Source: Rhodocyclaceae bacterium
GTDB taxonomy: Bacteria > Pseudomonadota > Gammaproteobacteria > Burkholderiales > Rhodocyclaceae
Length of the DNA: 55,077 nt
Assembly: GCA_028687645.1 (NCBI GenBank)
Contig: JAQTZQ010000007.1
Location: 1-55,077, forward strand
Direction: 5' to 3'
In this document: piece by piece, positions 3,969 through 39,076 of the stretch
Numbering within the stretch: the first letter of the stretch is position 1
Layout of the letters: each line of letters begins with the position of its first letter
The notes under the pieces: model-generated
Database searches by the model: none
Told to the model about the DNA's origin: nothing
Seen by the model: only the letters and a program-made list of their open reading frames with translations
Made by a program: the position numbers and the translations under genes

Positions 3969-4047
3969 ATGGGCTGCGTTTCTCTGTTTTAAGCTAGCCT
4001 TAATCTCCCCCCTCTAAACTGGCCGGAATCTTTTAAGGATTCTGCCC

Positions 4048-8216: not shown

Positions 8217-8511
8217 TGTCCTGCTCTCGCTAACCTTGCCCAACGACGTTGCCCAACACGTTGAAGACTTGTTGCTCTCGCGGCCCGATCTCGTGCGCGG
8301 CTTCACCGCCAGCCATGCCGAAGGCCACGGCAGCGTCATTACGCTGGTCGAGCCCAGCGAACTGGTCAGCGGTCATTCGCCACGCACCCAGATCCGAACT
8401 GTTGGGCCTGAAGAGCAAATGCGCGCCGTCCTGGCTTTGGTCAAAGGCAGTCTGCCGCACGCCAATATTTTCTATTGGCTGGTTCCGGTCATCGAAATGG
8501 GGCGCCTGTGA
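8209..8511 (+). CDS. DUF3240 family protein within metal efflux operon
   Basis: 100 residues from the ATG at 8209 (MADVLLSLTLPNDVAQHVED), preceded by a good ribosome-binding site (GGAGGG) inside the end of the pump gene. No signal peptide or membrane segment, so probably cytoplasmic. Its features (LLSLTLPNDVAQHVEDLLL, GFTASHAEGHG, EQMRAVLALV) match DUF3240, a PII/GlnB-like small protein repeatedly found beside CzcA-type pumps and of unknown function. It overlaps the pump stop by 8 bases, and its TGA overlaps the GTG start of the outer-membrane channel (GTGA at 8508-8511). A regulatory or metal-sensing role in the efflux complex is inference only. Confidence 0.75.
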   Translation: MADVLLSLTLPNDVAQHVEDLLLSRPDLVRGFTASHAEGHGSVITLVEPSELVSGHSPRTQIRTVGPEEQMRAVLALVKGSLPHANIFYWLVPVIEMGRL

Positions 8512-9770
8512 AAACTCTCACCCTCATCGTTCTTGCCAGCATCGTCGGCACCAGCTTTGCCGCCGAAGTGATGCCCGAATTTACGTCCGAACCCACGCCC
8601 AACCTGCCGCCCGCCGAGATCGTATTACGCGTGCTGCGCGCCAATCCAGCAGTGCAAGCCGCCGGCAGCCAGTTACAGGCTGAAGAAGCCAATCGTCGCC
8701 GCCTCGAAGCCGGGCTCTACGAATGGAACGTTCGCCTCGGTGGCCAGCAGCGCAAAACCAACCCGGCAAGCAGCCCAAATGAAAGTTTCAGCGAATGGAA
8801 CGCCGCGCTCGAACGCCCGCTGCGCCTGCCCGGCAAAGCTTCAGTCGATGCCGAACTGGGTGCTGCCGGGGTCAATCTGGCAACCACCGCACAGGGTGAT
8901 GCGCTGCATGAAACCAGTCGCAACCTGCTCAAATCGTGGTTCGTCTGGCTGCGGGAAAATGCCGCCGCCAAACAGTGGGCCGAACAAGTCGCCCTGCTGG
9001 GGCAGCAAACGCGAGCCGTGCAGCGCCGCCAGCAATTGGGCGACGCCGCAAAACTGGAAGCCATCCAGGGTGAAGCCGCCTTGGCGCAGGCCCAAGCCCA
9101 GCACAGCCAGGCCCAGTTGCGCGAGCGCACCGCCAGCGAAGATTTGCGCCGGCGCTTTCCTGGCTTACCGCTCGAAGCACCCGCCCGGATTGCCGAGCCA
9201 AGCGTGATCGAGGGCGACGAAGCGACATGGCTGGCAGAAATTCTTGAACACAGTCATGAACTCGGTATCGCACGTGGTGAAACACAAAAGGCGCAAATGC
9301 TGGCCGACCGTTCGCGTCGCGATCGTCTGCCCGACCCGACGCTTGGCGTCCATGTTTCCAGCGAGCGCGGTGGCGAGGAGCACGTCATGGGCGCTTATAT
9401 CAGCATCCCGCTACCCGGCGGCGCTCGCCGTTCAGGAGCAGATGCGGCATTTGCCCAAGCTAACGCCGCCAGTTTCCGCGAAGCCGACAGCGTCCAAAAT
9501 GTTACTGCCGCAGCGGGCGCGCTGTATCACTCGGCCAAGGCCGCGCGCGCCAGTTGGCAAGCGAGCCAGGGTGCGGCAGAAAAGCTGACGCGGGCCGCCG
9601 AAATGACGGCGCGCGCCTATCAGTTGGGCGAAGGAAGCCTCAGCGATCTGCTAAGCAATCGTCGTCTGGCCAATGAAGCGCAATTGGCTGCGCGTCTGGC
9701 ACAACTTGATGCGCTGGAATTACGCTATCGCCTGCTGCTCGATACGCATCGCTTATGGGATGTCGATTAA
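8508..9770 (+). CDS. TolC-family outer-membrane efflux channel (CusC/CzcC-like)
   Basis: About 420 residues from a GTG at 8508 (reads MKTLTLIVLASIVGTSFAAEV, a clear signal peptide). The frame extends upstream to 8475 but without a signal sequence. The body has two repeats of long amphipathic helices rich in Ala/Gln/Arg (about 50-210 and 240-415) typical of outer-membrane efflux proteins, with the RLPGKASVDAELG and SIPLPGGARRSG stretches of this family. It completes the tripartite pump with the adaptor and RND genes. There is no N-terminal lipobox, unlike E. coli CusC. Last gene of the operon; the 135 bases after it hold no obvious strong terminator. Confidence 0.82.
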   Translation: MKTLTLIVLASIVGTSFAAEVMPEFTSEPTPNLPPAEIVLRVLRANPAVQAAGSQLQAEEANRRRLEAGLYEWNVRLGGQQRKTNPASSPNESFSEWNAALERPLRLPGKASVDAELGAAGVNLATTAQGDALHETSRNLLKSWFVWLRENAAAKQWAEQVALLGQQTRAVQRRQQLGDAAKLEAIQGEAALAQAQAQHSQAQLRERTASEDLRRRFPGLPLEAPARIAEPSVIEGDEATWLAEILEHSHELGIARGETQKAQMLADRSRRDRLPDPTLGVHVSSERGGEEHVMGAYISIPLPGGARRSGADAAFAQANAASFREADSVQNVTAAAGALYHSAKAARASWQASQGAAEKLTRAAEMTARAYQLGEGSLSDLLSNRRLANEAQLAARLAQLDALELRYRLLLDTHRLWDVD

Positions 9771-9905
9771 GCAGCGGATAAGAAGCTGGCTTCCGGATTG
9801 AATAAGTTTGGCCGTTTGCCCCGAGAATAGAGCGCCCTTTTTTCATGGCCGGGTGTAGAGAATGGTAAATTTGCAGGTTCACAAAAATACATCTGGGAGA
9901 TTGCA

Positions 9906-10670
9906 GTGAAAATTGAAAATAACGCATTCGTCGTGACTGGTGGTGCTTCCGGCCTGGGGGCGGCAACTGCCCGCATGATTATTGCCGCCGGGGGCAAGGT
10001 GGTATTGGCTGATGTTAATCAGGAAGCCGGTGCCGCCATGGAGACCGAGTTGGGCGCCAACGCCCGTTTCGTCAAAACCGATGTCAGCAACGATGAAAGT
10101 GCGCGTCAGGCTTTTGCCGTGGCAAGCGGCATGGGTGTGCTGCGCGGACTGGTCAATTGTGCCGGTGTGGCGCCCGCCGAAAAGGTGGTTGGCCGCGACG
10201 GGGCACACAAGCTGGAATCTTTTGCCCGCACCATTAGTATCAACCTGATGGGTAGTTTCAACATGATCCGTCTGGCAGCAGAAATTATGAGCGCCAGCGA
10301 ACCGGATGCGACGGGTGAGCGCGGGGTGATCGTCAGTACCTCCTCGGTCGCGGCGTTTGACGGCCAGCTTGGTCAAGCGGCTTATGCGGCTTCCAAAGGT
10401 GGCGTTGTCGCCATGACTTTGCCGATTGCGCGTGAGCTGGCACGTTCGGGAATCCGCGTCATGACCATCGCCCCAGGCATTATGGAAACCCCGATGTTGA
10501 TGGGCATGCCAGCAGAAGTTCAGGAGGCACTTGGCAAGATGGTGCCGTTCCCGTCACGCATGGGCAAAGCGGCAGAATACGCAGCCTTGGTTGAGCATAT
10601 TTTTGCCAACCAGTATTTGAATGGCGAGGTGATTCGTCTCGACGGTTCGATCCGCATGGCGGCCAAGTAA
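9906..10670 (+). CDS. Short-chain dehydrogenase, 3-hydroxyacyl-CoA dehydrogenase type II-like
   Basis: 254 residues, classical SDR: TGGASGLG NAD-binding motif (12-19), aspartate after beta-2 (LADVN) favouring NAD, NCAGVAP (NNAG variant), catalytic Ser (STSSVA), and YAASK with catalytic Tyr and Lys. The long loop between beta-4 and the active site and the C-terminal YLNGEVIRLDGSIRMA resemble HSD17B10-type 3-hydroxyacyl-CoA / 2-methyl-3-hydroxybutyryl-CoA dehydrogenases. GGGAG lies about 10 bases upstream of the ATG. It is 20 bases upstream of an enoyl-CoA hydratase gene, which supports a role in beta-oxidation or branched-chain acyl-CoA breakdown. Exact substrate not determined. Confidence 0.82.
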   Translation: MKIENNAFVVTGGASGLGAATARMIIAAGGKVVLADVNQEAGAAMETELGANARFVKTDVSNDESARQAFAVASGMGVLRGLVNCAGVAPAEKVVGRDGAHKLESFARTISINLMGSFNMIRLAAEIMSASEPDATGERGVIVSTSSVAAFDGQLGQAAYAASKGGVVAMTLPIARELARSGIRVMTIAPGIMETPMLMGMPAEVQEALGKMVPFPSRMGKAAEYAALVEHIFANQYLNGEVIRLDGSIRMAAK

Positions 10671-11545: not shown

Positions 11546-11633
11546 TCTGGGTCAAAATGAGCACTGAAGTTGATTGGACGGGTCTACAATCAAAATCAAT
11601 CTGTGCCTAATTGCCAAAGGACGCCAAGGCGCC

Positions 11634-14425
11634 ATGCCGTTTTCAGCCAACGAAAAATCAGTGCCGAGGATTCATCTGATCGGCACCTTGACACTGGTTT
11701 TGCTCTTGACCTTGGGGCTGGCGGCTTTTTTTACCTGGCAAAATCTGGCCGAGCGGCGCGAATCCTTTGAGCGTATCGAAAAAGGGGTGACTGAACAGGT
11801 CAAGGCGCGAGTCAGCGCCGAAATGGATCGCTCACTCGACTACATTGACTTTACCCGCTCGCGCAGTGAGTTGATGTTGCGTCAAAGTCTGACCCAACAA
11901 GTTGATATCGCGCATCAGATTGCCCAGTCGATTTACGACAAGGAATCCAGCCAGCGCCCAGCCGCCGAGGTCAAGCGCCTGATTGTCGAAGCCTTGCGTG
12001 AAGTGCGCTTTTACGAGGGCCGGGGCTACTACTTTATTGACGACATGAACGGCCAGTTCATCCTGCTGCCCACCGCGCCGCAGTTGGAGGGCAAGACCAT
12101 GCTGGACAACAAGGATGACACCGGCCATTTCATCATGCGCGGCTTGATTGATGCGGCGGGCAAAGCGGATGGCGAGGGCTTCTCGCGTTATCGCTGGTAC
12201 ACGCCGGATGACCCGAAAAAAATGGCAGACAAGCTCGCCTACGTCCGTCGCTTTGTCCCCTATGACTGGTTAATTGGTACCGGCGACTACACCTACAAAT
12301 GGGATCAGTTACAGCAGCAGGAGGCCATGGTACGGCTACGCTCGGTGCGTTTTGGCGCGACCGGTTATATCGCCTTGCTGGATCGTGATGGCCGCGCCCT
12401 GATCTCGCCGGTGAACAAGGCCGTTGAAGGCAAATTGGCCAGCGAGATGCCGCCCGTTGAGCGTGCCGCATTGGAAGAGATGACGAGCAGCGCCAAGCGC
12501 GGGGGCGGCTTCATCAATTATCAATGGCCGAACCCGGCAACTGGCCAGTTGGAGACCAAAACTGCCCTGGTGCGGATGGTCGAGCCCTGGGGCTGGATCG
12601 TCATTGCTACCATGTTCAATTCCGAGCTGCAGAGCGCGCTCGATGCTGAAATCAAGATTTACGAACAAGGTGCCGATCAGCGCTCGCTGAACACGATATT
12701 GGTGATATTGGGCGCGCTGGCCATCGCCTTGCTGGGGTCGCTGTTGTTTTCGCACTGGTCAAAGCGGCTGTTTCAAAACTACCACGAGCAGAATCTCGCC
12801 CAGCAGGCAGCCTTGCTGGCCAGCGAACAAAAGCTGGCGGCTATTCTTGATAGTGTCGAGGCTTTTATCTACATCAAGGGTACTGATTACCGCTATCTCT
12901 ATGCCAATCAGCAGGTGCAGACCTTATTTGGCAAGCCGATGCACGACATTGTTGGCCATGGTGATGAGGTTTTTTCGATCAGCCAACCTCGGAGAACATT
13001 CGAAAAAATGATCGTCGTGTGCTTGAGCAGGGCGAGCGGGTGGCGGAGGAAGAAGTCAATACCAGCCTGGACGGCCAGGTCACCAGCGCCTACGTTTCGG
13101 TCAAACTGCCGCTGCGTGATACCGCCGGAAATATTTACGCGCTGTGCGGCATTTCAACCGACATCACCGCCCGTAAGCAAAATGAGGCCGAGTTAGCGAA
13201 GTATCGCGAGCATCTGGAAACCCTGGTGACTTCGCGCACTGCCGAGCTGGCTGAGGCCAAGGAGGATGCCGAAGCTGCCAGCCGGGCCAAGAGCACCTTC
13301 CTGGCAAACATGAGCCACGAAATTCGCACGCCGATGAATGCTGTTCTCGGCCTGGCGCATTTGCTGCTCAAGGATGCCAGGGAGCCCAAGGCGCAGGAGC
13401 AACTCGGAAAATTGCTCGATTCTGGCAAGCATTTGCTCAATATCATCAACAATATTCTCGATATCTCAAAAATTGAGGCGGGCAAACTGACGCTTGAGGC
13501 GGTTGAGTTCTCCCCGGCCCAGATCGTTGACCGTGCTTTCAGCATGCTGAGCGAACGCGCTGCAAGCAAAGGTCTGCAACTGGTTAAAGAGATTGATCCC
13601 GCTTTGCCCGGCTGGCTGTCAGGCGATGCGCTGCGCCTGGAACAGAGTCTGTTGAATTACATCGGCAACGCCATCAAGTTTTCAGAGCACGGACGCATCA
13701 CCGTTCGCGCCTCAGCCAGCGAGGACGACGGCCAGACGGTGCTCTTGCGTTTTGAAGTGGCGGATCAGGGGATCGGTATCGCGCCCGAGGAATGTGCCAA
13801 ACTGTTCCATGCCTTTAGTCAGGCCGACGACAGCACCACGCGGCGCTTTGGTGGCAGCGGGCTGGGGCTGGTCATCAGCCGCCAACTGGCGCAACTGATG
13901 GGTGGTGCTGTGGGGGTGCACAGCGAACCGGGCGTCGGTAGCACCTTCTGGTTTACCGTCCGTTTGCCCAAAGTCACCAAGCCGGTTTTGAGTCAGGCAC
14001 GGCCCGAGGGCGCCCAAAGCATGCCGGAAGATGTGATCGCCCAACGCTTTGGCGGTAGCCGCGTGCTGTTGGTTGAAGATGACCCGATTAGCCGCGAAGT
14101 CGCGGAGGAATTGCTCAGTCTGGCCGGATTGTCGGTCGATACCGCCGCAGATGGCCAAGCGGCGGTGGCTCTGGTGCGCGACAACGATTACGCGCTGGTG
14201 CTGATGGATATGCAGATGCCAGTGATGGGCGGCCTCGACGCCACCCGGGCCATTCGTCGGTTACCCGGCAAATTTGCGCTGCCGATTCTGGCGATGACGG
14301 CCAATGCCTTTGAAGAAGATCGCAATGCCTGCCTCGCCGCAGGCATGAACGACCATATCGGCAAGCCAGTCGACCCGGACGTACTTTTTGCAACCTTGTT
14401 CAAGTGGCTGGAACGGGGCGCCTGA
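11634..14425 (+). CDS. Hybrid sensor histidine kinase (Cache-PAS-HisKA-HATPase-receiver), frameshifted
   Basis: Two overlapping frames encode one protein of about 930 residues. Frame 1 starts at ATG 11634 ([10 protein letters not shown]; a TTG at 11574 is an alternative) and encodes TM1, a periplasmic double-Cache domain ([32 protein letters not shown]), TM2 (about 355-375) and the start of a PAS domain. After the T-run at 12970-12975 the reading moves to another frame, which supplies the rest of PAS, HisKA ([17 protein letters not shown]), HATPase_c ([19 protein letters not shown]) and a receiver domain ([18 protein letters not shown]). One more T in the run would restore a continuous frame. 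No HPt domain or cognate regulator is adjacent. Function in vivo depends on whether the shift is real. Confidence 0.8.
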
Positions 14426-17452: not shown

Positions 17453-18097
17453 CTATCCCGCTTCCGGTTCAGCGCAAAGGCCGGGTTGCTCGGCGGCGCG
17501 GTCAAGGGCTTGCTGAAACTGCTTGAAGGTAGCGACGGCGCGTTGGGCGGCCAGCGCCTGTTGAGCTGGATAGGCTGCGATGGTTTCGATGAAGACACAA
17601 AACCCCTGCCAGCGGGTTTGGGTATCGACGCCATAAGCATTGAAAAAGGCACCGCCCCGGTTAGCATCAATGCCCAGATGCTGGGTGATCAAACGGGCAA
17701 TCAACCCGCCGCCCAAGGTTGAACCTTCGATGACATAAAGCACCCCGATCAGCTCGGCCAGGTTGCTAATCGGTGCCATCGCGGCGGGTGTTGGCGCTGG
17801 GTGATGGCCAAAAAATGCAAGATCGCTCACCAGCCAGTGCAGTTTACGGCGTGGGCGGTAATCAAAAACGGCTGGATAGGCGCTGAGGTATTGCTCGATG
17901 GCGGCTTCCAGCCCGGCGTAGAGCGGCAGATAAGCGGCGAGCAGTGCTTGGTAACGGAGAAGCGGGTAGCCAGGGTGGGTGATGCCGCTCAGCATCGGAT
18001 GATGGTTGAGGGCGACGTGGGCGGCGTGCGTGTGCTGGCGCAAGAACTGGCGAACCGGGCCGGCGGCTTCAGTCGGCGGCTGGACGGGTGAGCTCAT
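17453..18097 (-). CDS. bphO: Biliverdin-producing heme oxygenase (BphO-type)
   Basis: About 214 residues from the ATG at 18097 (MSSPVQPPTEAAGP); the frame is open to 18157 but only within the upstream gene. The heme-oxygenase fold is shown by LRQHTHAAHVALNHHPML (proximal His) and GVLYVIEGSTLGGGLIARL (distal helix, glycine-rich). It opens heme to biliverdin, the bilin of bacterial phytochromes. Its ATG overlaps the TGA of the phytochrome photosensory gene (ATGA, 18094-18097), so chromophore supply and apoprotein are translated together. Confidence 0.88.
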   Translation of the reverse strand: MSSPVQPPTEAAGPVRQFLRQHTHAAHVALNHHPMLSGITHPGYPLLRYQALLAAYLPLYAGLEAAIEQYLSAYPAVFDYRPRRKLHWLVSDLAFFGHHPAPTPAAMAPISNLAELIGVLYVIEGSTLGGGLIARLITQHLGIDANRGGAFFNAYGVDTQTRWQGFCVFIETIAAYPAQQALAAQRAVATFKQFQQALDRAAEQPGLCAEPEAG

Positions 18098-19590
18098 AGG
18101 CAGCGTAGCAAGGCATTGCGAAAACGCGCGCAATACATGCGGTCTTCGTTGGTCCATGGCCGGCTGACGCCGCGCTTGACCTCGATCCAGCGCTCAAATG
18201 AGCGGCGCGGCGCGAGGCTGGGGATGGCGGTGTTTTCAGCCATTGGCTTGTCCGGATTGCCGGCCCAGTGTACTTCGAGCGGTTCTGCGCGCCGGAACCA
18301 GTAAATTCTGACCCACTGGCCCGATGTTTTTGGGTGCCGGCTAATGGTTTTGACCGCCATCAGGCCAGCTAGCGGGCTGATCGCCGTGGCGACCGAGGTA
18401 GCCATGCTGGCCAGGGTGTCGGACATGATGGCTGGCTCCGGCTCGGTGAGGAACCAGGCGTCGAGTTCGGATAGGCCAGTATTGTCCGGGCAATGGCCGT
18501 GTGAAACAAAATCGTCACCAATAGCCATGACCAAGCCGTCAGCATTCATCATCTCAAGCAATGGCTGCGGTTGGGTGGCAATCGCCTCGATGGCGGATTC
18601 GTAGGCGGTAAAAATGTTGAGAATTCCTTCGACGCGACGATTCAGCGCATCAATACTCTGCATGCGGCTTTGTGCCAGGTAGCTGCCGAGGCCGAGCGAA
18701 TGCGCCTGCGCCAGCCCGGAGGCCACCTGACAGGCTTCCGGGTCGGGCGTTAGCGGGCTCAGGTGATGGCAGGCAACCAGCCCCCAGAGCTTGCCACCAA
18801 CCTTGATCGGCAAAGAAAATGAGGCGCGCACGCCCATGTGCTCAAGGTATTTGAGATGAACCGGAGAAACACTGCGCAGCAGCGCATTGGTTAAATCGGG
18901 TACGTCGTTGCCCAGTACGGCGGAAACGGGCATGTGAATATCAGGAATGCTGCGCCACGGATTGACCAGGTAAATCCGTCGGGCGATGGCTGGTATGTCG
19001 CTGGCCGGGAAGCGTAAACCCATATAGCTGCCCAAGCCTTCACGAACTTCCTCGGCGACGACCTCACCACTGAAGTCGTCATGGAAGTGATAAAGCATGA
19101 CCCGGTCAAAGCCCGTCACCTCACGTACGCCGAGTAACAGCGCGTGATGGTGGGCAGCCAGTTCGGCGGCATCGCCGGGGGCTTTGAGCAGCGGTAATTG
19201 CAGGCGATGGGCGGCCAGCGATGGTGCGTTGCGCGAGGGCAGCATTTCGACCAGTAAATGCCCACCGGAGATCGTCAGCCAGGCATCCAGCCAGCCAGCA
19301 CAACCTTCGGTGATATGCGAGCAGAGCTGGTTGGCGCCCGGTTTTTGCCGCCCCAGCGCAAACACCAGAGCGGCATGCAGCCAGGGTAGGCTTACGCTAA
19401 CCGGGGTGTTCAGAAGCTCGCCAGCGGGTACGCCGATGTGCGCTTCAAGATTGGCGCTGGCGTGAGTAATCGTTTTGCCGTCCGGCGTCAGCGCGAGCAA
19501 TGCGCCGTAGCTTTGGATGGCACCGGAGCGATGCAGTTGTTCAGATTCGCAACCGGCTGTCAGGGTCGCGAGATCGTAGGTTTGAGTCAT
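18094..19590 (-). CDS. Bacteriophytochrome photosensory core module (PAS-GAF-PHY) without output domain
   Basis: 498 residues from the ATG at 19590 (MTQTYDLATLTAGCESEQL). PAS about 1-120 with Cys14 placed as the biliverdin-attaching Cys of bacteriophytochromes (CESEQLHRSGAIQSYG). GAF about 135-310 with PASDIP, the NPWRS arginine region and the conserved ACHHLSP histidines. PHY about 320-498 with the tongue motif PRRSFERW. All key chromophore-pocket motifs are present, but the protein ends at the end of PHY, with no kinase, GGDEF or other output domain. Its ATG overlaps the TGA of the CheB-CheR-GGDEF-EAL gene, and its TGA overlaps the bphO start. It presumably signals by contact with another protein; the upstream gene product is the obvious partner. 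Confidence 0.9.
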   Translation of the reverse strand: MTQTYDLATLTAGCESEQLHRSGAIQSYGALLALTPDGKTITHASANLEAHIGVPAGELLNTPVSVSLPWLHAALVFALGRQKPGANQLCSHITEGCAGWLDAWLTISGGHLLVEMLPSRNAPSLAAHRLQLPLLKAPGDAAELAAHHHALLLGVREVTGFDRVMLYHFHDDFSGEVVAEEVREGLGSYMGLRFPASDIPAIARRIYLVNPWRSIPDIHMPVSAVLGNDVPDLTNALLRSVSPVHLKYLEHMGVRASFSLPIKVGGKLWGLVACHHLSPLTPDPEACQVASGLAQAHSLGLGSYLAQSRMQSIDALNRRVEGILNIFTAYESAIEAIATQPQPLLEMMNADGLVMAIGDDFVSHGHCPDNTGLSELDAWFLTEPEPAIMSDTLASMATSVATAISPLAGLMAVKTISRHPKTSGQWVRIYWFRRAEPLEVHWAGNPDKPMAENTAIPSLAPRRSFERWIEVKRGVSRPWTNEDRMYCARFRNALLRCL

Positions 19591-22500
19591 GCCAGCGGTG
19601 GGCCTTTGTGTTTGAGCAGCGCGGCGAAGTCGTCGGGCAGGAGTGGGCGGTAGAAATAAAACCCCTGGGCGTATTCGCAACCCAGCGCCATGAGTGCCGT
19701 GACGTGGCTTTCGCGCTCGACACCTTCGGCCACCACCTTGAGATTGAGCGAGTGGGCGAGGCTGATGATAGCAGTGGTGATCGCCATGTCGTCGGCGTTG
19801 GTATCAAGGTCATCGACAAAACTTTTATCCACTTTCAATTCCGCCAGCGGCAGGCGCTTGAGGTAGGCGAGGGAAGAATAGCCGGTGCCGAAGTCATCAA
19901 TGCTCACGGACATCCCGGCAGCGCTCAGGTGTTCAAGAATTTTGCGTGAAAATTCAATGTCCTGCATCAGGCTGCTTTCAGTGACTTCAATGCACAACTG
20001 CGTTGGTGGCACGGCAAATTCATGAACCAGGGTTTCGAGGCGCTGAGAAAATTCGGCATTGCGTAGTTGATGGCTGGAGACATTGACCGAAATCGGCAGC
20101 ACTGCCAGCCCGGCATCCTGCCAGTCACGCATGTGCTGCAATACCAGTTTGAGCGCCCGCTCACCCACCGCATCGATCAAGCCGCAGCGCTCGGCGACTG
20201 GAATGAACTGGCTGGGCGGTACCGCGCCGAGGTGCTCGTCCTTCCAGCGCAGCAAGGCTTCGGCACCAACAACTTGCCCTGTTTTTAGCTCGATCTTGGG
20301 CTGGAAGGCAATAGAGAACTGGTGGTTGTCGAGCGCCATGCGCAGCCCGCTTTCCAGCGTCAGGCGCTGGAGGGCAATGATCTTCATTTCATCGGCAAAA
20401 AACTGGTATTGGTTCTTGCCCCTTTCCTTGGCGCGATACATCGCCGTGTCGGCACTCTTGAGCAGGGTGCTGCTATCGTTGCCATCGTCCGGGTAAATGG
20501 CGATGCCGATACTGGCCGAGCCAAACAGGCTGCGTTCCTGAATCTCAAACGAGGCCGAGAGAAAATCGACAATGCGCGCGGCGATGGCGCGAATCTGGTC
20601 GAGGTCGACATCCACCAGCAGGGCGACAAACTCATCTCCGCCAAGGCGCGCCAGGGTGTCGGCGCCACGGACGCAGGATTGCAGGCGGCGCGCCGCCTCC
20701 TTGAGTAATTCATCGCCGACATCGTGCCCGAGACTGTCGTTAATATTTTTGAAGTTGTCGAGGTCAATGAACAGCACCGCCAGCTTCTGGCGCAAGCGTG
20801 CACCTTGGGCAATGCTGTGCTTGAGCCGGTCGACCAACAGGTTACGGTTTGGCAGGCGGGTCAGTTCGTCATGCGTCGCCATGTACTCGATGCGCCGCTG
20901 GCTGAGCTTGATGGCGCTGATGTCGCTGAAAATATAAACGTAATGTTGTACCGCGCCATCGTTGCCATAAACGGCATTGATGGTCAGCCACTCGGGAAAT
21001 ATCTCACCATTTTTGCGCTGGTTGAACATCTCGCCCTGCCAGAAACCCTGTGCCAAAACTGTCAACTTGATGGCGTCGTAAAAAGCTTTTTCGTGACGCC
21101 CGGAGCGCAGTATGTGAGGACGTTTGCCAATCACTTCATCCGGGGCGTAGCCCGTTATTGTGTTAAATGCGGCGTTGACCGTAATGATTTGGTCACGCTC
21201 ATTGGTCACACAAATGGCTTCGCCGGCACGGTCAAAGACCTTGGCAGCAAGGCGCAATTGTTCCTCGGCCTTGTGTTTGTGCGTCACATCAATGGCTTGT
21301 GTGCAGATAAAGCGCACGCTGCCGTCGTCGGCAAAGATCGGGAAGCTGCTGGCGTCAAGCTGGCGTTTGCCGGCGCTCAGCAGTAGTTCCAGCTGCACCT
21401 CGCAAGCCTGCAAGCTGCCCATCACGGCCAGGTCGCGTTCACGTAACTGCTGGGCTATGTTGGCGGGCAAAAGCTGCATGTCGGTTTTGCCGATGATCTC
21501 TTCGCTGCTCAGCTCAGCCAAACCCAGCACCTGCTTCCAGCGCGGGTTGGCAAAGTGGTAACGGCCAGCGGTGTCTTTCAGGCAGACCAGCGACGGCGAC
21601 TGATTCATGATCGCCAGCAGTTCTTCGCGGCTTTGGCGCAGGCGCAACTCGGCGCGCGCCAGGTCACTTTGGTCGATGACAACCAGCACGATACTTTGCG
21701 TTACGCCGGCAGCGTTGATCGATGGCGTGATAAAGACTTGCCAGGTCAGCTCGCCCTCGCTTACCGCGTAGCTTTCCTTGCGCTGCTCGGTGAGCATTTG
21801 CCCCATGCGTTGCGGCAGGTCGGCCAGGTATTTGGGCAGGCGCAGCACCGCCAGATGCTGACCGGCGACCCCGGCTGGCAAGTCAAAGCGGCGGCTGGCG
21901 TTACTGTTCACGCGTTTGACGAAAAGCTCGGCATCGAAGACCAGCACCGGGAAATCGAGCGTGTTGTACACGCTTTCAAAGTCGGCATTGACGGCGGCCA
22001 GTTCAGCAGATTTGACGAGACTTTCCTCGTTGACCGCAACCAGCTCCTCATTCGAGGCCTGTAACTCCTCATTTGCGGCTTCAAGCTCCTCGTTGGCGGC
22101 TTGCAACTCTTCATTGGCGGCCTGAACCTCCTCATTCAGCGCCTGCATCTCCTCGTTGGCCGAGGCCATTTCTTCGAGCAGAATTTGCAGGTGTTCGCGC
22201 GTGGCAGCCAGTTCGTCGTTGTCGGCAGGTTCGGGTGCGGCCTCATCCTTGGTTTGGTGTGCCTCAAAAACAATGAGGAAGTTTTCATTGCCAGCCTCGC
22301 CGGAGGCCACCGGATAAACCGCCATTTTCCAGGAGTTGGCTGGCGACCGGAGGATGCGCCGGTTGCGGCTTCTCGCCAGTTGTTGCTTGCGCCGGGCGCG
22401 ATTGACCGTGGTCGCCAGCTCGCCCTGCAACTCGGGGACGATGATTTGCGCCAGATTCATCTGTGGCGTGCCCTGGGGCAGGTCGATGAAGTGCGCAATA

Positions 22501-24125
22501 TCGCCACGCGAGTAAAGAATATTGAAGCCCTGATCAATCAGCACAGCGCGCGTCGCAAAATTTTGATCGACCGCATCCATAAAGCGCTGCTCAAGCACCG
22601 GTCTGGTTTTGGCCGTGCTGCGCGGCGGCGCGCTGGAAATCGTGCCGCGTATCACCTGCGCCACATCGGCCCGGCGTGTGCCGCTGCTGCGGCGAAACAA
22701 GCGGTTGCGGCGATCCAGCGGGGTGAACAGATCATCGGGATGATTGGCGTTTTCCGAGCGGCCAAGAAAGGCAATGCCGTCGTCACGCAGCGCAAAATGG
22801 ATTTTTGACAGCGCCTTGATCTGTAGTTCGGCGTTGAAATAAATCAGCACATTGCGGCAGGTGGCCAGATCCAGCCGTAAAAATGGTGGGTCGGAAATCA
22901 GGTTCTGGCGGGCGAAAGTGACGCATTCGCGCAATTGCCGCGAAACCTGCATGCCACCGTCGACTGGTAGAAAATATTTGTTGATGAAATCCACCGGCAA
23001 TTCACTCAGGGCAGCCGACGGGTAAATCCCCCGGCGAGCGACCAGCAAGGCGTCTTCATCAATGTCGGTGGCAAAAATTTGCAGGACGCGTTTTGAAAGC
23101 CGTTCACCAATCGCCTCGGCAAACAGCATGGCGATTGAGTAAACCTCTTCACCCGTGGCGCAGCCGATGACCCAGACCCGACTTTCTTCAAGCATGGATT
23201 TACGGGCGACGATTTCCTTGATACGCAGCGTCAGCGAGCGGAAGGCGTCGCGGTCACGGAAAAATTCGGTGACTGAAATCAGGGTCTCGCGCGCCAGTGC
23301 GTCGAGTTCTTCCTTGTGCTCATGGCAGTGGGTGAGATACGCGCCGAGGTCGGCGCTGTTGGTGGCGGCCAGCCGGCGCTGCAGGCGGCGCATGACGGTC
23401 GCCATCTTGTAGCCGGAAAAATCGATTTCGGTGCGCTGGGTGACCAGGTCAAAAATCTGCGCCAGCTCACTGCCGCGCTCTTCCCAGTGTTCCGCCTTGG
23501 GCAGCACCCCTTCGCAGCGGATCAGGCGTTCGATCTCGGCGCCGATATCGGCGGGGTCAAGAATACGATCAACCACCCCGGCCTCGATGGCCGAGAGCGG
23601 CATGCTCTCGTATTTGGCCGTGCTTGGTGTTTGTGCCATGGAGATGCCGCCGGCCGCCTTGATCGCCTGCAAGCCACGCGTGCCGTCGCCGCCGGTGCCG
23701 GAAAGCACGACACCAATGACGCGTTCGCCGTAATTCTCGGCCAGCGATTGAAAAAACTGGTTGATCGAAGGTTTGGGGGAGATTTCAGGGGAGGTGATGA
23801 CCAACTGAAAGCGGTCGTCTTTCAGGCTGAGATTGAAGCCGGGGGGAATGATGTAAATGTGATTGGGTAACGGTCGGGCGTCGGCAATGGCATCACTGAC
23901 CGGCAGGCTGCTCTCGCGCCCGAGAATTTCGGCCATCAGGCTGCGATGGCTGGGCGACATGTGCTGGGCGACGATATAAATACAGCCGCTATCGATGCGC
24001 AAGTTGGCGACGCAGTGCGTGAGTGCCTCAAGCCCGCCAGCCGAGGCGCCTAAACCGACCCAATAGGTCGGTACTTCTGAGGAAGTGCTGTGTTCCACAA
24101 TGCCATCCTGAATGTGAATGCTCAA
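19587..24125 (-). CDS. CheB-CheR-PAS-GGDEF-EAL multidomain signalling protein
   Basis: 1512 residues, no signal peptide or transmembrane helix seen. CheB methylesterase (about 20-210; GASAGGLEAL, QHMSPSHRSL, SGTGGDGTRG: the Ser, His, Asp triad is kept). CheR methyltransferase (about 225-490; VIGCATGEEVYSIAM SAM site, CRNVLIYF). Degraded PAS-like region, then a long coiled coil of NEEL repeats (about 645-725), three PAS domains (about 735-1105), GGDEF (about 1115-1280; RLGGDEF with RGAD I-site) and EAL (about 1285-1512; GAEALLRW, DDFGTGYSS). Both c-di-GMP domains look catalytically complete. The CheB receiver domain is absent. First gene of the operon with the phytochrome module (ATGA overlap at 19587-19590). 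Adaptation-type methylation combined with c-di-GMP turnover is inferred; the target is unknown. Confidence 0.9.
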   Translation of the reverse strand: MSIHIQDGIVEHSTSSEVPTYWVGLGASAGGLEALTHCVANLRIDSGCIYIVAQHMSPSHRSLMAEILGRESSLPVSDAIADARPLPNHIYIIPPGFNLSLKDDRFQLVITSPEISPKPSINQFFQSLAENYGERVIGVVLSGTGGDGTRGLQAIKAAGGISMAQTPSTAKYESMPLSAIEAGVVDRILDPADIGAEIERLIRCEGVLPKAEHWEERGSELAQIFDLVTQRTEIDFSGYKMATVMRRLQRRLAATNSADLGAYLTHCHEHKEELDALARETLISVTEFFRDRDAFRSLTLRIKEIVARKSMLEESRVWVIGCATGEEVYSIAMLFAEAIGERLSKRVLQIFATDIDEDALLVARRGIYPSAALSELPVDFINKYFLPVDGGMQVSRQLRECVTFARQNLISDPPFLRLDLATCRNVLIYFNAELQIKALSKIHFALRDDGIAFLGRSENANHPDDLFTPLDRRNRLFRRSSGTRRADVAQVIRGTISSAPPRSTAKTRPVLEQRFMDAVDQNFATRAVLIDQGFNILYSRGDIAHFIDLPQGTPQMNLAQIIVPELQGELATTVNRARRKQQLARSRNRRILRSPANSWKMAVYPVASGEAGNENFLIVFEAHQTKDEAAPEPADNDELAATREHLQILLEEMASANEEMQALNEEVQAANEELQAANEELEAANEELQASNEELVAVNEESLVKSAELAAVNADFESVYNTLDFPVLVFDAELFVKRVNSNASRRFDLPAGVAGQHLAVLRLPKYLADLPQRMGQMLTEQRKESYAVSEGELTWQVFITPSINAAGVTQSIVLVVIDQSDLARAELRLRQSREELLAIMNQSPSLVCLKDTAGRYHFANPRWKQVLGLAELSSEEIIGKTDMQLLPANIAQQLRERDLAVMGSLQACEVQLELLLSAGKRQLDASSFPIFADDGSVRFICTQAIDVTHKHKAEEQLRLAAKVFDRAGEAICVTNERDQIITVNAAFNTITGYAPDEVIGKRPHILRSGRHEKAFYDAIKLTVLAQGFWQGEMFNQRKNGEIFPEWLTINAVYGNDGAVQHYVYIFSDISAIKLSQRRIEYMATHDELTRLPNRNLLVDRLKHSIAQGARLRQKLAVLFIDLDNFKNINDSLGHDVGDELLKEAARRLQSCVRGADTLARLGGDEFVALLVDVDLDQIRAIAARIVDFLSASFEIQERSLFGSASIGIAIYPDDGNDSSTLLKSADTAMYRAKERGKNQYQFFADEMKIIALQRLTLESGLRMALDNHQFSIAFQPKIELKTGQVVGAEALLRWKDEHLGAVPPSQFIPVAERCGLIDAVGERALKLVLQHMRDWQDAGLAVLPISVNVSSHQLRNAEFSQRLETLVHEFAVPPTQLCIEVTESSLMQDIEFSRKILEHLSAAGMSVSIDDFGTGYSSLAYLKRLPLAELKVDKSFVDDLDTNADDMAITTAIISLAHSLNLKVVAEGVERESHVTALMALGCEYAQGFYFYRPLLPDDFAALLKHKGPPLA

Positions 24126-24194: not shown

Positions 24195-24224
24195 AAAAAA
24201 ATCCCCGACCTGATCAGGCCGGGG
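24195..24224 (-). terminator. Rho-independent terminator of phasin gene
   Basis: On the minus strand a stem CCCCGGCCTG / CAGGTCGGGG (one mismatch pair) with a tight loop is followed by a run of seven T. It starts 10 bases after the phasin stop codon. Confidence 0.85.
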
Positions 24225-25434: not shown

Positions 25435-27264
<1,830 letters not shown>

Positions 27265-27362: not shown

Positions 27363-28850
27363 TTGAACAGCCGCTTTAACGATCCGTTTCGCGCCCAGCG
27401 CAAATTGCTTTCCGGGAGCCAGTGCTTTGCTGGTTTGCCAACGGCAGTGCTCGAAGAATTGATCTCCGCCAGCCGCGTGCTTGAGTTGTCAGCGCATCAG
27501 ACCCTGTACGAAGCTGGCAAGCCGATCCGCGAAGCGCATTTGTTGTTTAGCGGCAGCGTCAAGCGTAGCGCAAGCCTCCCGGGTGGTGCGAGCAAAGTCA
27601 TCGAGCTTGTGCAAACCGAGCAATTGCTCAGTTTGGGAGAAATATTCGGTGCGACACACTATGCCTCTTCTTGCACCGGGATCACGCCGACCTTGTTGGT
27701 CGCCATCGATATCGGCAAATTGCGCGAGGCGGCCCAAAATCACCTGGCGCTGAGTTGCCGGATATTAACTGCCTTGGCGCGTCGGCAATTTGCGACAGAA
27801 TTCGATGTCACCAGCCACCACTATGGCCTGACGGGTGCACAACGCCTGCTCGACTATCTCCTCGAAATGGCCGGCGAGCCTCCCGGGCTGGCAGGTGAGA
27901 CTACCGTTGTTCTGAAGGCCAGCAAAAAAGTCATTGCTGCGCGCATTGGTATGACACCCGAATCCTTGTCGCGTAATCTGCGTGAGTTGAGTGACAGCGG
28001 CGTACTTGTTGTGGATGGACGGAAAATCCATATTCAGAACGCTGCGGTGCTTGATACGGTGAGCGGCAATGCCCAGCAAAGACTCAATTTTTGCCGGAAG
28101 CGCAAAGTCAATGCACTGGATGTCAGGCCAGCCTTGTCGGCGGGCGCATTGATCAATATGTGCGGTCGTCTGCGCCTGCTTTCGCAGCGCATGGTCATTG
28201 CCTGGGGGATGATTGCATTTGCCATTGCGCCGCCTCAGGCCCGCGTCAAATTGAAGCAACTGGAGAAAGAGTTTGAGCGCAACCTGGCCCGTCTCAGCCA
28301 GCTTGAGGCGACAGTTGGGCTCGCCGACAAGTTGATGGCCAGCAAAACGGCCTGGTTACGTTACCAAGCCCTGGTGTGTTGTGATGAACCGGCGATAGAA
28401 CTGGCGGGCGAGGTTTTCGGGCTAAGTGAGGCACTGCTTGAAGCCACTGATTCATTAACCGGACTGGCGGCTACGCTGGCGGGCCTGCCCGAGGCGCATT
28501 ACGTCAATATCGCTGGCCGCAACCGGATGTTGTCACAACGGATCAGCAAGTTTTTTATATTCCGCGAGTGGACTCTTTTGGGGGATGGCATCGACGCCCT
28601 TGTGACGTTGTCCTGCGTCGAGTTTGAAAGCAATCTGCGAGCGCTAGGCAAGACCGGAAATCCCCCGGCAGAACTCGCTGCCCAACTGCAGGTGGTGGCT
28701 GCTCAATGGCAAAAATTCCTTCGCGCCATGTCACCGGATCTGTCGCACGGGGCGAAAATTCAGCATACCCGAATGGTGCTGGCTGAAGGCGAGCGATTGC
28801 TGCGCAGTGTCGATACGACGGTCAAACTGTTCGAACGACTCACCGGCTAA
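27363..28850 (+). CDS. Crp/Fnr-family regulator fused to a PilJ/NarX-like sensor domain
   Basis: 495 residues, about twice the normal Crp/Fnr length. The start is a TTG (27363); no ATG is available before the conserved fold. Residues about 15-150 form the cyclic-nucleotide-binding-like barrel (SRVLELSAHQTLYEAGKPI, LLSLGEIFGATHYAS). About 165-230 form a winged helix (KKVIAARIGMTPESLSRNLREL, recognition helix). There is no FNR-type cysteine cluster, so it is closer to DNR. Residues about 255-495 contain two motifs, NMCGRLRLLSQRMVIAW (near 262) and NIAGRNRMLSQRISKFF (near 381), that match the PilJ-type/NarX P-box helix which binds nitrate or nitrite in NarX. No transmembrane segment, so the domain is cytosolic. 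Next to nirS, which carries DNR-type boxes. A nitrate/nitrite- or NO-responsive regulator is inferred. Confidence 0.8.
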   Translation: MNSRFNDPFRAQRKLLSGSQCFAGLPTAVLEELISASRVLELSAHQTLYEAGKPIREAHLLFSGSVKRSASLPGGASKVIELVQTEQLLSLGEIFGATHYASSCTGITPTLLVAIDIGKLREAAQNHLALSCRILTALARRQFATEFDVTSHHYGLTGAQRLLDYLLEMAGEPPGLAGETTVVLKASKKVIAARIGMTPESLSRNLRELSDSGVLVVDGRKIHIQNAAVLDTVSGNAQQRLNFCRKRKVNALDVRPALSAGALINMCGRLRLLSQRMVIAWGMIAFAIAPPQARVKLKQLEKEFERNLARLSQLEATVGLADKLMASKTAWLRYQALVCCDEPAIELAGEVFGLSEALLEATDSLTGLAATLAGLPEAHYVNIAGRNRMLSQRISKFFIFREWTLLGDGIDALVTLSCVEFESNLRALGKTGNPPAELAAQLQVVAAQWQKFLRAMSPDLSHGAKIQHTRMVLAEGERLLRSVDTTVKLFERLTG

Positions 28851-28906: not shown

Positions 28907-29521
28907 TCATTTCGCAGCGCCAAGCAGGATGAAAAGGTCAGCCAAACTGCGGGCGCCAAGTTTGTGCATGGCGTTGCCCCGGTGTTGTTCCACCGTTTTG
29001 ATGCTGATATTTAATTGTGTGGCAATGCGCTTGTTGGGCAGGCCGCTGAGTATGGCGTCAACCACATCGCGCTCACGTGGCGTCAGGCCGGCCAGGCGCG
29101 AATCAAAGACCTGTTGCCGGCGCTCGGCGGCAAGTCGCTCGCGGCACAGGGCGATGGCTTTTTGCACGCGGTCGAGCAGAAGCTGTTCATTGAACGGCTT
29201 TTGCATGAAGTCGACAGCGCCTTTGCGCATCGCCTCGACGGCCAGCGGAATGTCGCCGTGGCCGGAAATGAAAATGATCGGCAGATAGGCGGCGCGCTCG
29301 CTCAGGATGTCTTGCAGCACCGTGCCGCTGATACCGGGCATGCGGACGTCAAGAATCAGGCATTCGCATTGCGTCATCTCGCTGGCGTCGAGAAAAGTTC
29401 GGCAATCGGGAAAAGTGACGCAGGCCAGCCCGAGTGTTTCGAGCAGCATGCAGAGCGATTGGCGCACCATGGCATCGTCGTCGACGACACAAACCAGGCC
29501 ACTTTCAGGGATGTTCGGCAT
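28907..29521 (-). CDS. FixJ/NarL-type response regulator
   Basis: 204 residues from the ATG at 29521 (MPNIPESGLVCVVDDDAMV). Receiver domain about 8-125 (VVDDD, LILDVRMPG phospho-acceptor, MQKPF), LuxR-type HTH about 140-200 (GLTPRERDVVDAILSGLPNKRIA, SIKTVEQHRGNAMHKL). The FixJ-like linker indicates a DNA-binding activator. Its start overlaps the end of the PAS kinase gene by 17 bases, so the two form a cognate pair. The target genes are not known. Confidence 0.88.
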   Translation of the reverse strand: MPNIPESGLVCVVDDDAMVRQSLCMLLETLGLACVTFPDCRTFLDASEMTQCECLILDVRMPGISGTVLQDILSERAAYLPIIFISGHGDIPLAVEAMRKGAVDFMQKPFNEQLLLDRVQKAIALCRERLAAERRQQVFDSRLAGLTPRERDVVDAILSGLPNKRIATQLNISIKTVEQHRGNAMHKLGARSLADLFILLGAAK

Positions 29522-31385
29522 GGGCTTCCTCTTGTGCGCAGGCCAGCGTAAAGCAAAATTTGGCGCCACCATCCGGTGCCGGCTCGGCCCACAGGTGGCC
29601 GCTATGATTTTCGATAATCGAGCGGCAAATCGAGAGCCCCATGCCGAGTCCGTCTTCCTTGTCCGAATAAAAGGGCTCCCAGTGCCCGTTGATCATCGCG
29701 GCGCTGAGGCCGGGTCCGTGGTCAATGACTTCCACCCGCACCCGTGCGTCGGCTTCCGACCGGGCGCGTAACGTGAGTTGGCGCGGTGCTGCGCTTTGCT
29801 TCATGGCCTCAAAGCCATTACGAATCAGGTTAAGCAGTAATTGTTCGATCTGCACCTGGTCGGCTTGCACTTCCGGGAGTTCGGGATCTATCGCGATATC
29901 GAGATTGGCCTCAAAGGCTTTGGCCTGCATGCTGGCGAGCGGCAGGATGCCGGCGATGAGTTGTTGTAGCGACAAGGGGCGCAGCGAGGTTTTGCCCTTT
30001 TTGACAAAACTGCGAATCTGGTGCGTGATGTTGCCGGCGCGCATGGCTTGTTCGGCGATGGTTTGCATCAAGCTGGTCAGTTCGTTTTGCGGGGCGCCGG
30101 CTTTGAGTTTGTGCAGCGCCACGGCTGAAAAGTTGCAGATCGCAGTCAGTGGCTGATTGACCTCGTGGGCCAGCGCCGAGGCAATTTCGCCGACGCTGAC
30201 CAGACGTGCGGTGTGCAGCATTTGCTCTTGCCGGCTTTGTTCGATTTCTGCTTTGCGGCGTTCTTCCTCAATATCGCGAATGCTGCCAACAATCCGCAAG
30301 GCGCGCCCTTGCAGCGACCACTCCATGACCTTGCCGCGCATTTCCAGCCAGTGATAATCGCCGTCACGACAGCGTACCCGCAACTGATGCTCAAGCAGCG
30401 GGGTGGTACCGCGCAGCAGCGCGCTGAAGGCTTGCTGCAGTGGCTTGGCTTCGTCCGGGCTGATACGTTCCAGCCAGGCGGCGAGGTTTTCCTGCCCGGA
30501 GCCAGGCGGCATGCCGATAGCTTCGCGAAAATCATCGGAGACGCTAAGCTCGTTGCTGGCGAGATTCCAGTCCCAGAGACCGTCACCCTGGCCCTCAAGG
30601 GCGAAACGCCAGCGTTCTTCGCTGGCTTTGAGGCGATCAATGAGGGCGCGCTCTTCGGTGATGTCGCGCACGGCAACCAGCGTTGTCTGGCCATTGCTGT
30701 CTTGCTGGCGAGTCAGCAGAATATCGGCGAGGAATAATTCGCCATCGCGCCGGCGATGCCATTCGCCACTCAGCACACTTTGTCGCGACAGGTAATAGCG
30801 GGCAGCCTGTTGGGCATCGCCCAAAAATGTCGAGACATGCTGATCCAGCATTTCGGCCATTTCGCAGCGGTAACGCTCCAGTGCTGCAGTATTGACCTCG
30901 ATAATGATGCCGCGACTGTTGAGCAAATACAGTGGATAGGGGGCGGCACGAAACAGCGCCTGATAGCGCTGGCCTTCATCCTTGTCCTGACGCTCGCGGC
31001 GAAAGTGCTCGGAGACGTCGCGCACGGCAATGAAAGTGTATTCCTCGTCGCCGCTGCCGGCCCAGCGCAGATTCATCTCGACCGGAAAGTGCAGGCCGTC
31101 GGCGCGGCGATGGTAGCGCAGCGGCACATGCTCGCGGCGCTCGTTGAATATGGTCACGACGCTTTTGGTTTCAGTCGCCAAGTCGGGGTAGCGCATCTGT
31201 TGCAGGGTGCTGCGCGGGAAACCGTAAAGCTTGCAGGCAGCCGTATTGACCGCAAGCAAACGACCGCTGGTGCGATGCACCACAATGACTGCTTCGGCGC
31301 TGACTTCGAGCAGGTGATTGAAATTTTCAGCATTCGGGGCCAGTAGCCCAAGCGCCGAGGTGGCGGCGAAATCAGATGTCTTCAT
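29505..31385 (-). CDS. Soluble PAS sensor histidine kinase (FixL-type)
   Basis: 626 residues with no transmembrane helix. Three PAS/PAC units (about 20-130, 140-255 and 260-385; e.g. VHRTSGRLLAVNTAACKLYG, DGLWDWNLASNELSVSDDF), a HisKA of the FixL/NtrB class (SVGEIASALAHEVNQPLTAI, His near 415) and HATPase_c (NLIRNGFEAMKQ, DGLGMGLSI). No heme-binding His was identified with confidence. It overlaps the CheB-CheR gene upstream by 14 bases and the FixJ-type regulator downstream by 17 bases, so all three are one translational unit. Confidence 0.88.
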   Translation of the reverse strand: MKTSDFAATSALGLLAPNAENFNHLLEVSAEAVIVVHRTSGRLLAVNTAACKLYGFPRSTLQQMRYPDLATETKSVVTIFNERREHVPLRYHRRADGLHFPVEMNLRWAGSGDEEYTFIAVRDVSEHFRRERQDKDEGQRYQALFRAAPYPLYLLNSRGIIIEVNTAALERYRCEMAEMLDQHVSTFLGDAQQAARYYLSRQSVLSGEWHRRRDGELFLADILLTRQQDSNGQTTLVAVRDITEERALIDRLKASEERWRFALEGQGDGLWDWNLASNELSVSDDFREAIGMPPGSGQENLAAWLERISPDEAKPLQQAFSALLRGTTPLLEHQLRVRCRDGDYHWLEMRGKVMEWSLQGRALRIVGSIRDIEEERRKAEIEQSRQEQMLHTARLVSVGEIASALAHEVNQPLTAICNFSAVALHKLKAGAPQNELTSLMQTIAEQAMRAGNITHQIRSFVKKGKTSLRPLSLQQLIAGILPLASMQAKAFEANLDIAIDPELPEVQADQVQIEQLLLNLIRNGFEAMKQSAAPRQLTLRARSEADARVRVEVIDHGPGLSAAMINGHWEPFYSDKEDGLGMGLSICRSIIENHSGHLWAEPAPDGGAKFCFTLACAQEEAHAEHP

Positions 31386-38800: not shown

Positions 38801-39076
38801 GTCAATACCTTCCTCAACCCGAAAGGCATGGCCCAGCAGGAAATCGAGCTGGCACGCTCGACCGATGAAGAAAAGCAGTCGCAGATCAAGCGCCTGCGTG
38901 ATTTCCAGGCAAAAAACGCGTCGACCGCACCCATCATGCTGGAAAAACTGAAACAAACCGTGATCGAAGACGGCAACGTCTTCGCGGTGCTGGTCGATGC
39001 CGTGAAATACTGCTCGCTGGGCCAGATCAGCACGGCGCTCTACGAGGTGGGGGGGCAGTACCGGCGCAGTATGTAA
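35816..39076 (+). CDS. icmF: Fused isobutyryl-CoA mutase (IcmF)
   Basis: 1086 residues, the normal IcmF length. B12-binding domain at 20-150 with the cobalt-ligand motif FDGHDAS (Asp29, His31); MeaB-like G-protein chaperone domain about 200-420 ([13 protein letters not shown]-loop, [24 protein letters not shown] guanine specificity); mutase large-subunit TIM barrel about 540-1080 ([28 protein letters not shown]). It interconverts isobutyryl-CoA and butyryl-CoA using adenosylcobalamin; the fused GTPase protects and reloads the cofactor. Single gene, divergent from the AraC-type regulator. It fits with the branched or short acyl-CoA genes at 9906-11470, though these are not adjacent. Confidence 0.95.

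Follow-up and report, generated by a model that had tools for sequence, protein, structure and literature searches.

The window analysed here, a stretch of 55,077 nucleotides of contig JAQTZQ010000007.1 from a Rhodocyclaceae bacterium (assembly GCA_028687645.1), encodes on its minus strand an output-less bacteriophytochrome (BphP), a heme oxygenase and a large hybrid protein, CheBR1. In our best reading they are likely to make up a two-polypeptide red/far-red light system, in which the photosensor would act in trans on an enzyme of cyclic di-GMP (c-di-GMP). The CheBR1 gene (19587..24125) has the order CheB-CheR-coil-PAS-PAS-PAS-GGDEF-EAL, as judged from the list of open reading frames (ORFs), from Pfam and from an alignment of 20 homologues. 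BphP (18094..19590), a PAS-GAF-PHY protein of 498 amino acids (aa), runs from the ATG at 19590 to the TGA at 18094 and ends in ...RFRNALLRCL, and the heme oxygenase (17453..18097, 214 aa) was recognized by Pfam (Heme_oxygenase, E 3e-14). The CheBR1 stop overlaps the BphP start at 19587..19590 (GCATGACT) and the BphP stop overlaps the heme oxygenase start at 18094..18097 (CTATGAGC), both as ATGA; the three minus-strand genes and the two overlaps described in a first-pass annotation of this DNA were thus borne out. The same annotation had given CheBR1 1512 residues. Its ORF and its Pfam domains (CheB-CheR-PAS-GGDEF-EAL) stand, and the figure of 1512 aa is counted from a mechanically chosen TTG. 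A GTG at 24098, nine codons after the TTG, has the better-looking Shine-Dalgarno sequence (AGGA, spacing 7 nucleotides), and a protein of 1503 aa would therefore be as likely as one of 1512 aa.

The photosensory core of BphP appears complete. Pfam matches were found for PAS_2 (aa 14-66), GAF (152-295) and PHY (327-496) and for no further family, output domains included, at E <= 0.001; the PHY match extends to aa 496 of 498, so that protein and domain end together. Cys14 (19549..19551), the DIP motif (198-200), His245, His275 and the PRxSF motif of the PHY tongue (461-465; 18196..18210) are invariant in 24 aligned BphPs, that of the window included, and we take Cys14 to be the biliverdin-attachment residue. 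Pfam and the invariant columns thus agree with the earlier description of a full PAS-GAF-PHY core with Cys, DIP, histidines and tongue and without output. Among the matches listed, the best solved structures were phytochromes or proteins built from them. Against the NCBIfam BphP equivalog NF041576, BphP scored 231.6 bits, below the cut-off of over 1040 bits, and was aligned over residues 13-481 alone. From these features we infer that the window BphP would bind a bilin and photoconvert between red and far-red forms.

The missing output domain might have been a local accident. Truncation, which the first-pass annotation had itself raised, is excluded, because the output-less BphPs form a conserved clade and end at a fixed point: 30 output-less loci stop at -1 to +8 residues relative to the end of the window BphP, as estimated from BLAST ends. 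A truncation, frameshift or contig artefact was rejected on this conserved end and on the overlap with the next gene. The possibility that the true sensor is a second, output-bearing BphP encoded at another place was rejected as well, since the window's own genome (assembly with a stated completeness of 99.7%) gave a single BphP match at E <= 0.001. A degraded phytochrome that signals nothing would also lack an output, and most PHY proteins are longer: among 398 genomes drawn from the phylum, 76 of the 83 PHY matches lay in frames of at least 678 aa and 7 in frames under 600 aa, one being that of the window and six being weak matches. Degradation would also fit genome G003, which lacks BphP at this place. 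The chromophore-site residues invariant in 24 sequences, the end point, which varies by no more than about 8 aa across 30 loci, and a photocycle measured for a protein of such kind, as described in PMC4053972, argue against it, however, and make this explanation very improbable.

Phytochromes that end at PHY recur among relatives. We assembled 80 loci from relatives, ranked by similarity to the window BphP, and 8 from further genomes; the sampling being similarity-ranked, the counts are no census. When 88 BphP ORFs were classed (short pieces in L151 and the second ORF of L093 left out), 36 ended at PHY and 52 continued. Removal of the near-copies L028, L038, L039 and L148, the broken gene of L093 and the contig-cut L029 left 30 output-less members. 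In a BphP tree of 88 rows (87 ORFs and the window, without L093; quick search, no bootstrap, long-branch warnings), one clade of 35 rows contained all output-less BphPs of the tree except that of Lysobacter (L085), the window included; its support in the SH-like approximate likelihood ratio test (SH-aLRT) was 97. The label "output-less" needs two changes on this tree, and the label "CheB-CheR neighbour" five. Twenty-eight of the 35 rows carry the latter label, L029 by virtue of the GGDEF-EAL end on its cut-off contig.

The distribution of split BphPs was examined in several genome sets. Of 399 genomes drawn from the order, 42 gave a BphP match at E <= 1e-60, and in 4 of these, the window's own counted, the top match was a split BphP; the other three have a CheBR partner adjoining, whole in G164, cut by the contig end in G373 and without a CheB match in G187. 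The partner hybrid of G187 (L143, 8411-12400) runs from CheR onward, which may be a true loss or an assembly error. Of 117 genomes of one family, five, all from a single genus, have split BphPs at E <= 1e-118 (four further ones from this set, L196-L199, stand outside the neighbour counts); none was found among 399 genomes drawn from another family at this cut-off, which divergent ones may escape. Among 100 relatives, the split BphP is complete in six and is represented by a fragment in G006. Three Chromatiaceae loci with an output-less BphP and no CheB-CheR gene near (L046, L049 and L051) hold a GGDEF gene, which in L049 and L051 is a REC-GGDEF gene on the strand opposite to BphP and which is perhaps another trans partner.

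A CheB-CheR gene lies within 5 kb of 26 of the 36 output-less BphPs, compared to 2 of the 52 with outputs (Fisher p = 4.7e-12). The genome search that the first-pass annotation had proposed, for PHY-ending proteins next to CheB-CheR-GGDEF-EAL genes, was thus run; in the cleaned set (near-copies, L093 and L029 dropped) a CheB-CheR gene was near in 22/30 versus 2/52 (p = 2.4e-11), and among loci flanked by 5 kb or more on the low side and 4 kb or more on the high side in 16/22 versus 2/35 (p = 1.5e-7). The two output-bearing cases are the second BphP of L035 and L089. In L089, from an alphaproteobacterium, a C-terminally extended BphP is likewise near a CheB-CheR-HisKA-HATPase hybrid, a heme oxygenase lying between the two (3193-10625). 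All 26 CheBR neighbours share the strand of BphP and, L030 and L044 excepted, lie upstream of it. Matches to BphP and to CheB or CheR were never found in the same ORF (0 of 145 BphP-matching ORFs, duplicates and cut loci included). BphP and a heme oxygenase are no more than 300 bp apart in 12 of the 22 partner loci and for 15 of the 52 BphPs with outputs; in L040 and L043 the heme oxygenase is found upstream of the CheBR gene instead. The gene neighbourhoods argue that BphP and CheBR1 are functionally paired, which we consider quite probable.

The output end of the partner is more variable than its CheB-CheR end. In 18 of the 22 partner loci, CheB or CheR and GGDEF-EAL matches fall in one ORF. 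The partner in L032 is spread over three overlapping ORFs, perhaps through sequencing errors, and that in L035, orthologous to CheBR1, has HisKA-HATPase-REC in place of GGDEF-EAL. In L036 the partner is a distant CheBR protein with a HATPase domain, 1.8 kb off and with a hybrid kinase ORF between, and in L044 a CheBR-PAS gene is followed by a separate PAS-GGDEF-EAL gene. GGDEF-EAL as an invariant partner was rejected on L035, L036 and L044. The output swap in L035 and the separate output gene in L044 therefore indicate that CheB-CheR-coil is, by gene content, the constant partner and GGDEF-EAL the usual but replaceable output, and they make CheB-CheR-coil the candidate for docking; the GGDEF-EAL partner put forward in the first-pass annotation holds in this restricted sense.

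Most partners belong together. In a tree of 57 CheB-CheR hybrids (quick search, no bootstrap, long-branch warnings), they form one clade of 25 rows (SH-aLRT 98), 23 of which have an output-less BphP adjoining; the other two are L187, where BphP lacks its start because the contig ends there, and L185 of G003, without BphP. None of the 13 rows of the sister clade, which includes the second hybrid of the window and the C206 paralogue, has a BphP adjoining within the available flanks (about 1.4 kb on one side for L165). The partners in L036 and L044 stand outside the clade of 25 on long branches, and BphP therefore seems to have been paired with other hybrids too. Distances between BphPs correlated with those between partners (Mantel r = 0.83, p = 1e-4, n = 19 pairs, L036 and L044 left out; r = 0.65, n = 21 pairs, with both included; near-copies L028, L038, L039 and L148 dropped from both runs), a correlation compatible with co-evolution or joint inheritance alike. 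Within the genus of the window, two pairs differ widely (38-39% identity between the BphPs, 46-47% between the partners), and the pairs therefore do not simply follow species. Judged from these trees and distances, the pairing is old and mostly stable.

CheBR1 itself was matched by Pfam to CheB, CheR_N, CheR, PAS families, GGDEF and EAL, all on the minus strand. The CheB methylesterase domain (aa 23-198; 23532..24059) has the Ser28, His55 and Asp147 motifs, presumably catalytic, and the CheR_N and CheR methyltransferase part (aa 220-470; 22716..23468) has GCATGEE and CRNVLIYF motifs, the CheR motif for S-adenosylmethionine (SAM) being present. A coil of NEEL heptads (aa 638-722; 21960..22214), judged from the heptads and without a program, contains six tandem [AST]xxEExxA units. 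It is followed by PAS_10-like (719-818, under the Pfam cut-off), PAS_4 (841-951) and PAS_9 (969-1070) domains (20916..21971), by GGDEF (aa 1083-1239; 20409..20879) with an RxxD I-site and an intact RLGGDEF, and by EAL (aa 1261-1494; 19644..20345) with the motifs EALLR, N, E, DDFGTGYSS, K, E and Q. The catalytic motifs of all four enzyme domains are invariant or nearly so in the 20 homologues, L035 being without GGDEF-EAL. Fused CheB and CheR followed by coil and PAS, the features of the CheB-CheR hybrid family, are all present.

Across the 20 homologues, the coil is the most conserved region, with a mean majority share of 0.775, compared to 0.73 for GGDEF, 0.715 for CheB, 0.68 for CheR, 0.63 for CheR_N, 0.62 for EAL and 0.51-0.65 for the PAS-like domains. 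Its lead over GGDEF is small without L035 (0.77 versus 0.754, or 0.80 versus 0.754 with gaps uncounted). Six tandem [ASTG]xx[EQ][EQ]xx[ASTG] cores were counted in the coil versus an expectation of 0.58 from composition shuffles (none of 20,000 reached six); these cores are a lead only, as any regular heptad coil of such composition would score. Coils shorter by 7 residues (L042) or by 14 (L027, L028 and L033) stay in heptad register. A coil of this kind is also present in the second hybrid of the window and is therefore a property of the hybrids and not of the light system. No match to the MCPsignal domain (PF00015) was found in CheBR1 by Pfam, nor there in the search of its own genome.

We also looked for a site at which the two proteins might meet. 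Compared to eight sister-clade proteins, the partner clade has 19 specific substitutions, 10 of which fall in the PAS-coil-PAS part that makes up 24% of the columns (p = 0.006, post hoc). Taken with the output swaps in L035 and L044, these substitutions weakly suggest that BphP would make contact at the CheR-coil-PAS part. In the mechanism that we propose, the heme oxygenase would make biliverdin, which would attach at Cys14 of BphP. BphP would then photoconvert, with no in-line coiled-coil signalling, since its last PHY helix ends the protein; because BphP ends before the coiled-coil linker, the signal to CheBR1 would have to cross an interface. BphP would bind co-translated CheBR1, probably at the CheR-PAS-coil-PAS part, and on balance we lean toward such binding being direct. 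It would thereby shift the balance of CheBR1 between c-di-GMP synthesis by GGDEF and breakdown by EAL, and we consider control of c-di-GMP by light through the pair likely. In the least certain step, CheR and CheB would methylate and demethylate glutamates of CheBR1's own NEEL coil and so reset sensitivity, as in chemoreceptors. Self-methylation of CheBR1 is a tentative proposal, and methylation-based adaptation of the system is speculative. More doubtful again is the idea that BphP serves in trans as an exchangeable light subunit and that CheBR1, as a receptor-like enzyme, adds methyl groups to its own coiled coil and removes them, so that one protein would carry out the adaptation with c-di-GMP as the output; if so, the cell would read changes in light and not absolute light, without methyl-accepting chemotaxis proteins (MCPs), CheA or CheW.

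Several observations weigh against a light-controlled pair of this kind. With regard to loss and INDEPENDENCE, the order in the window is AAA gene, heme oxygenase, BphP, CheBR1, and in G012, which has the same gene order, the heme oxygenase is missing at that place. G003 (L185) has a CheBR1 that is 70% identical, in the same order, without BphP and heme oxygenase, and 62 bp are left between the AAA gene and CheBR1; no BphP match was found in G003 at E <= 1e-10, the assembly being 76% complete and the locus continuous. This tells against a strict dependence of CheBR1 on light, since the partner can be retained without that input: either CheBR1 serves the cell in the absence of light sensing, or the system as a whole can be done without. 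At least one CheB-CheR hybrid (E <= 1e-80) is found in 35 of 100 relatives and a whole split BphP in 6 of these 100, and paralogues with the same GGDEF-EAL end, including L152 in the window's own genome, have no BphP nearby. No CheB-CheR gene is near the BphP in seven members of the output-less clade, namely L045, a Magnetovibrio locus and five Chromatiaceae loci, for some of which little downstream DNA was available. The 19 clade-specific substitutions are few and conservative. The strict 10-residue consensus for MCP methylation was not found in CheBR1, the 8-residue core occurring six times in tandem in the coil. Of the split light-controlled c-di-GMP system proposed in the first-pass annotation, what stands is a separate core co-encoded with a probable c-di-GMP output and a chromophore enzyme; the partner kept without BphP in G003 qualifies this reading. 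A sensor gene common to the loci of the BphP-less paralogues was also sought, and at eight loci (L152 and L188-L194), whose neighbours were compared with the window's genes alone, none was strongly like a gene of the window cluster.

These unpaired genes are what would be expected if BphP signalled to another protein and the operon reflected common regulation: output-less BphPs occur without a CheBR gene near in the five Chromatiaceae loci, the Magnetovibrio locus and L045, and CheBR occurs without BphP in G003 and among the paralogues. Shared expression alone is nevertheless an improbable explanation in view of the co-diversification of BphP and CheBR with a matching partner clade, the neighbourhood enrichment (22/30 versus 2/52) and the CheBR gene lying upstream on the same strand in all of the 26 loci except L030 and L044.

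Alternatively, light might act on CheB-CheR and set the methylation of chemoreceptors elsewhere, in phototaxis, with GGDEF-EAL as a secondary output. CheB and CheR are retained where GGDEF-EAL has been swapped or split off (L035 and L044), and 22 MCP domains scored above the cut-off in the genome. The four bacteriophytochromes of 'Candidatus Symbiobacter mobilis', including Cenrod_2641, were proposed as phototaxis sensors (PMC4053972). However, two separate CheB genes with CheR near, on MCP-bearing contigs, would serve those receptors; no receiver domain was found in CheBR1 by Pfam, and its GGDEF and EAL domains are intact and conserved. We therefore regard phototaxis as unlikely and continue to prefer a photosensor acting in trans on the c-di-GMP enzyme.

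Parts of this arrangement have precedents. Cenrod_2641/2642 of 'Ca. S. mobilis' are an output-less, photoactive phytochrome and a heme oxygenase in an apparent operon (PMC4053972). Like the window BphP, Cenrod_2641 is a PAS-GAF-PHY protein without apparent output domain that adjoins a heme oxygenase, and its C-terminus, translated from the published reverse primer, is NLLRWL, as in many output-less members here (PMC4053972). In contrast to the window pair, the main text of that paper has no word starting with CheB or CheR. An output-less phytochrome beside a heme oxygenase, with a working photocycle, is therefore already known from that account (PMC4053972), and of the novelty that the first-pass annotation saw in the split arrangement there stands the CheB-CheR pairing, for which no published report was found in a literature search that left subscription journals mostly outside reach. 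The 'Ca. S. mobilis' locus was not met among the 117 and 399 genomes (E <= 1e-118 in both sets), perhaps because it was not drawn.

In phytochrome-GGDEF proteins, as described in PMC9587094, the signal runs along a coiled-coil linker of constrained length, sensor and effector being one chain. BphG1 and PadC-EAL resemble the window system in combining a biliverdin phytochrome core with GGDEF and EAL; they are one chain, whereas the window has two ORFs and an output chain that adds CheB, CheR and PAS (PMC9587094). The motifs of a competent GGDEF and EAL, of the PadC and PadC-EAL kind, are present in CheBR1 at the level of sequence. Separate sensors that control a diguanylate cyclase (DGC) or a DGC-phosphodiesterase (PDE) are described for H-NOX pairs (Lpg1057, SwDGC and Dgc1; PMC8846402). 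There, as in the window pair, sensor and c-di-GMP enzyme are co-encoded; the H-NOX sensor, however, responds through heme to nitric oxide (NO) and not through a bilin to light, and its partners are not described as CheB-CheR hybrids in the accessible text (PMC8846402). CheB-CheR hybrids such as RC1_3878 of Rhodospirillum centenum (PMC2890560) share with CheBR1 the fusion of CheB and CheR, in the hybrids scanned here mostly followed by coil and PAS; in contrast to CheBR1, no phytochrome partner is reported for them in the accessible text of that paper. PixD-PixE of Synechocystis, as mentioned in PMC4053972, similarly joins a photoreceptor without obvious signalling domain to an interacting partner, but PixD is a BLUF blue-light sensor and its partner a response regulator.

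A whole phytochrome clade stops short of the linker, mostly with a partner retained on another chain, which suggests that phytochrome-to-c-di-GMP signalling also works in trans, and transfer of a light signal across a protein interface becomes directly testable. The pair also gives a handle on CheB-CheR hybrids: in this subfamily the physical input is likely to be light, the output, c-di-GMP, can be measured, and a role of methylation could be tested. A separable light subunit would moreover be useful for optogenetics.

Upstream of the trio lies a gene that we take to be phasin-like, with a terminator-like hairpin of 9 pairs and a T run at its 3' side (24203..24224, minus strand; consensus match alone). 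Because this site, read from 24224 to 24203, closes the upstream gene, the trio would probably start its own transcript, set apart from the phasin-like gene; the region holds 10 terminator-like sites versus 10.7 in shuffles, no excess over chance.

Further genes of the window were noted. The second CheB-CheR-coil-PAS hybrid (31372-34332, minus strand, 986 aa) is without output domain and overlaps a PAS-HisKA-HATPase gene (29505-31385), which in turn overlaps a LuxR-type response regulator gene (28907-29572), all on the minus strand. Hybrid, kinase and regulator are kept next to the CheBR1 locus in G012, hybrid and kinase in G003, and a similar trio is found elsewhere in G006; this is a second case of a CheB-CheR hybrid whose probable partner is encoded beside it on another chain. 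At 11574-14425 (plus strand), a dCache-PAS ORF (11574-13196) and a HisKA-HATPase-REC ORF (13019-14425) overlap in different frames and represent either another split sensor kinase or a frameshift. A Crp/Fnr-like regulator with cNMP-binding and helix-turn-helix (HTH) domains is fused to PilJ-type domains at 27363-28850 (plus strand), directly 3' of a cytochrome cd1 nitrite reductase gene (25435-27264), and is possibly a regulator linked to nitrate/nitrite or NO. One protein (35816-39076, plus strand) combines B12-binding, MeaB GTPase and methylmalonyl-CoA mutase domains and is presumably an IcmF-type fusion. Finally, a glycosyltransferase fused to a sucrose-phosphate phosphatase (42567-44828, minus strand) adjoins a gene of the alpha-amylase family.

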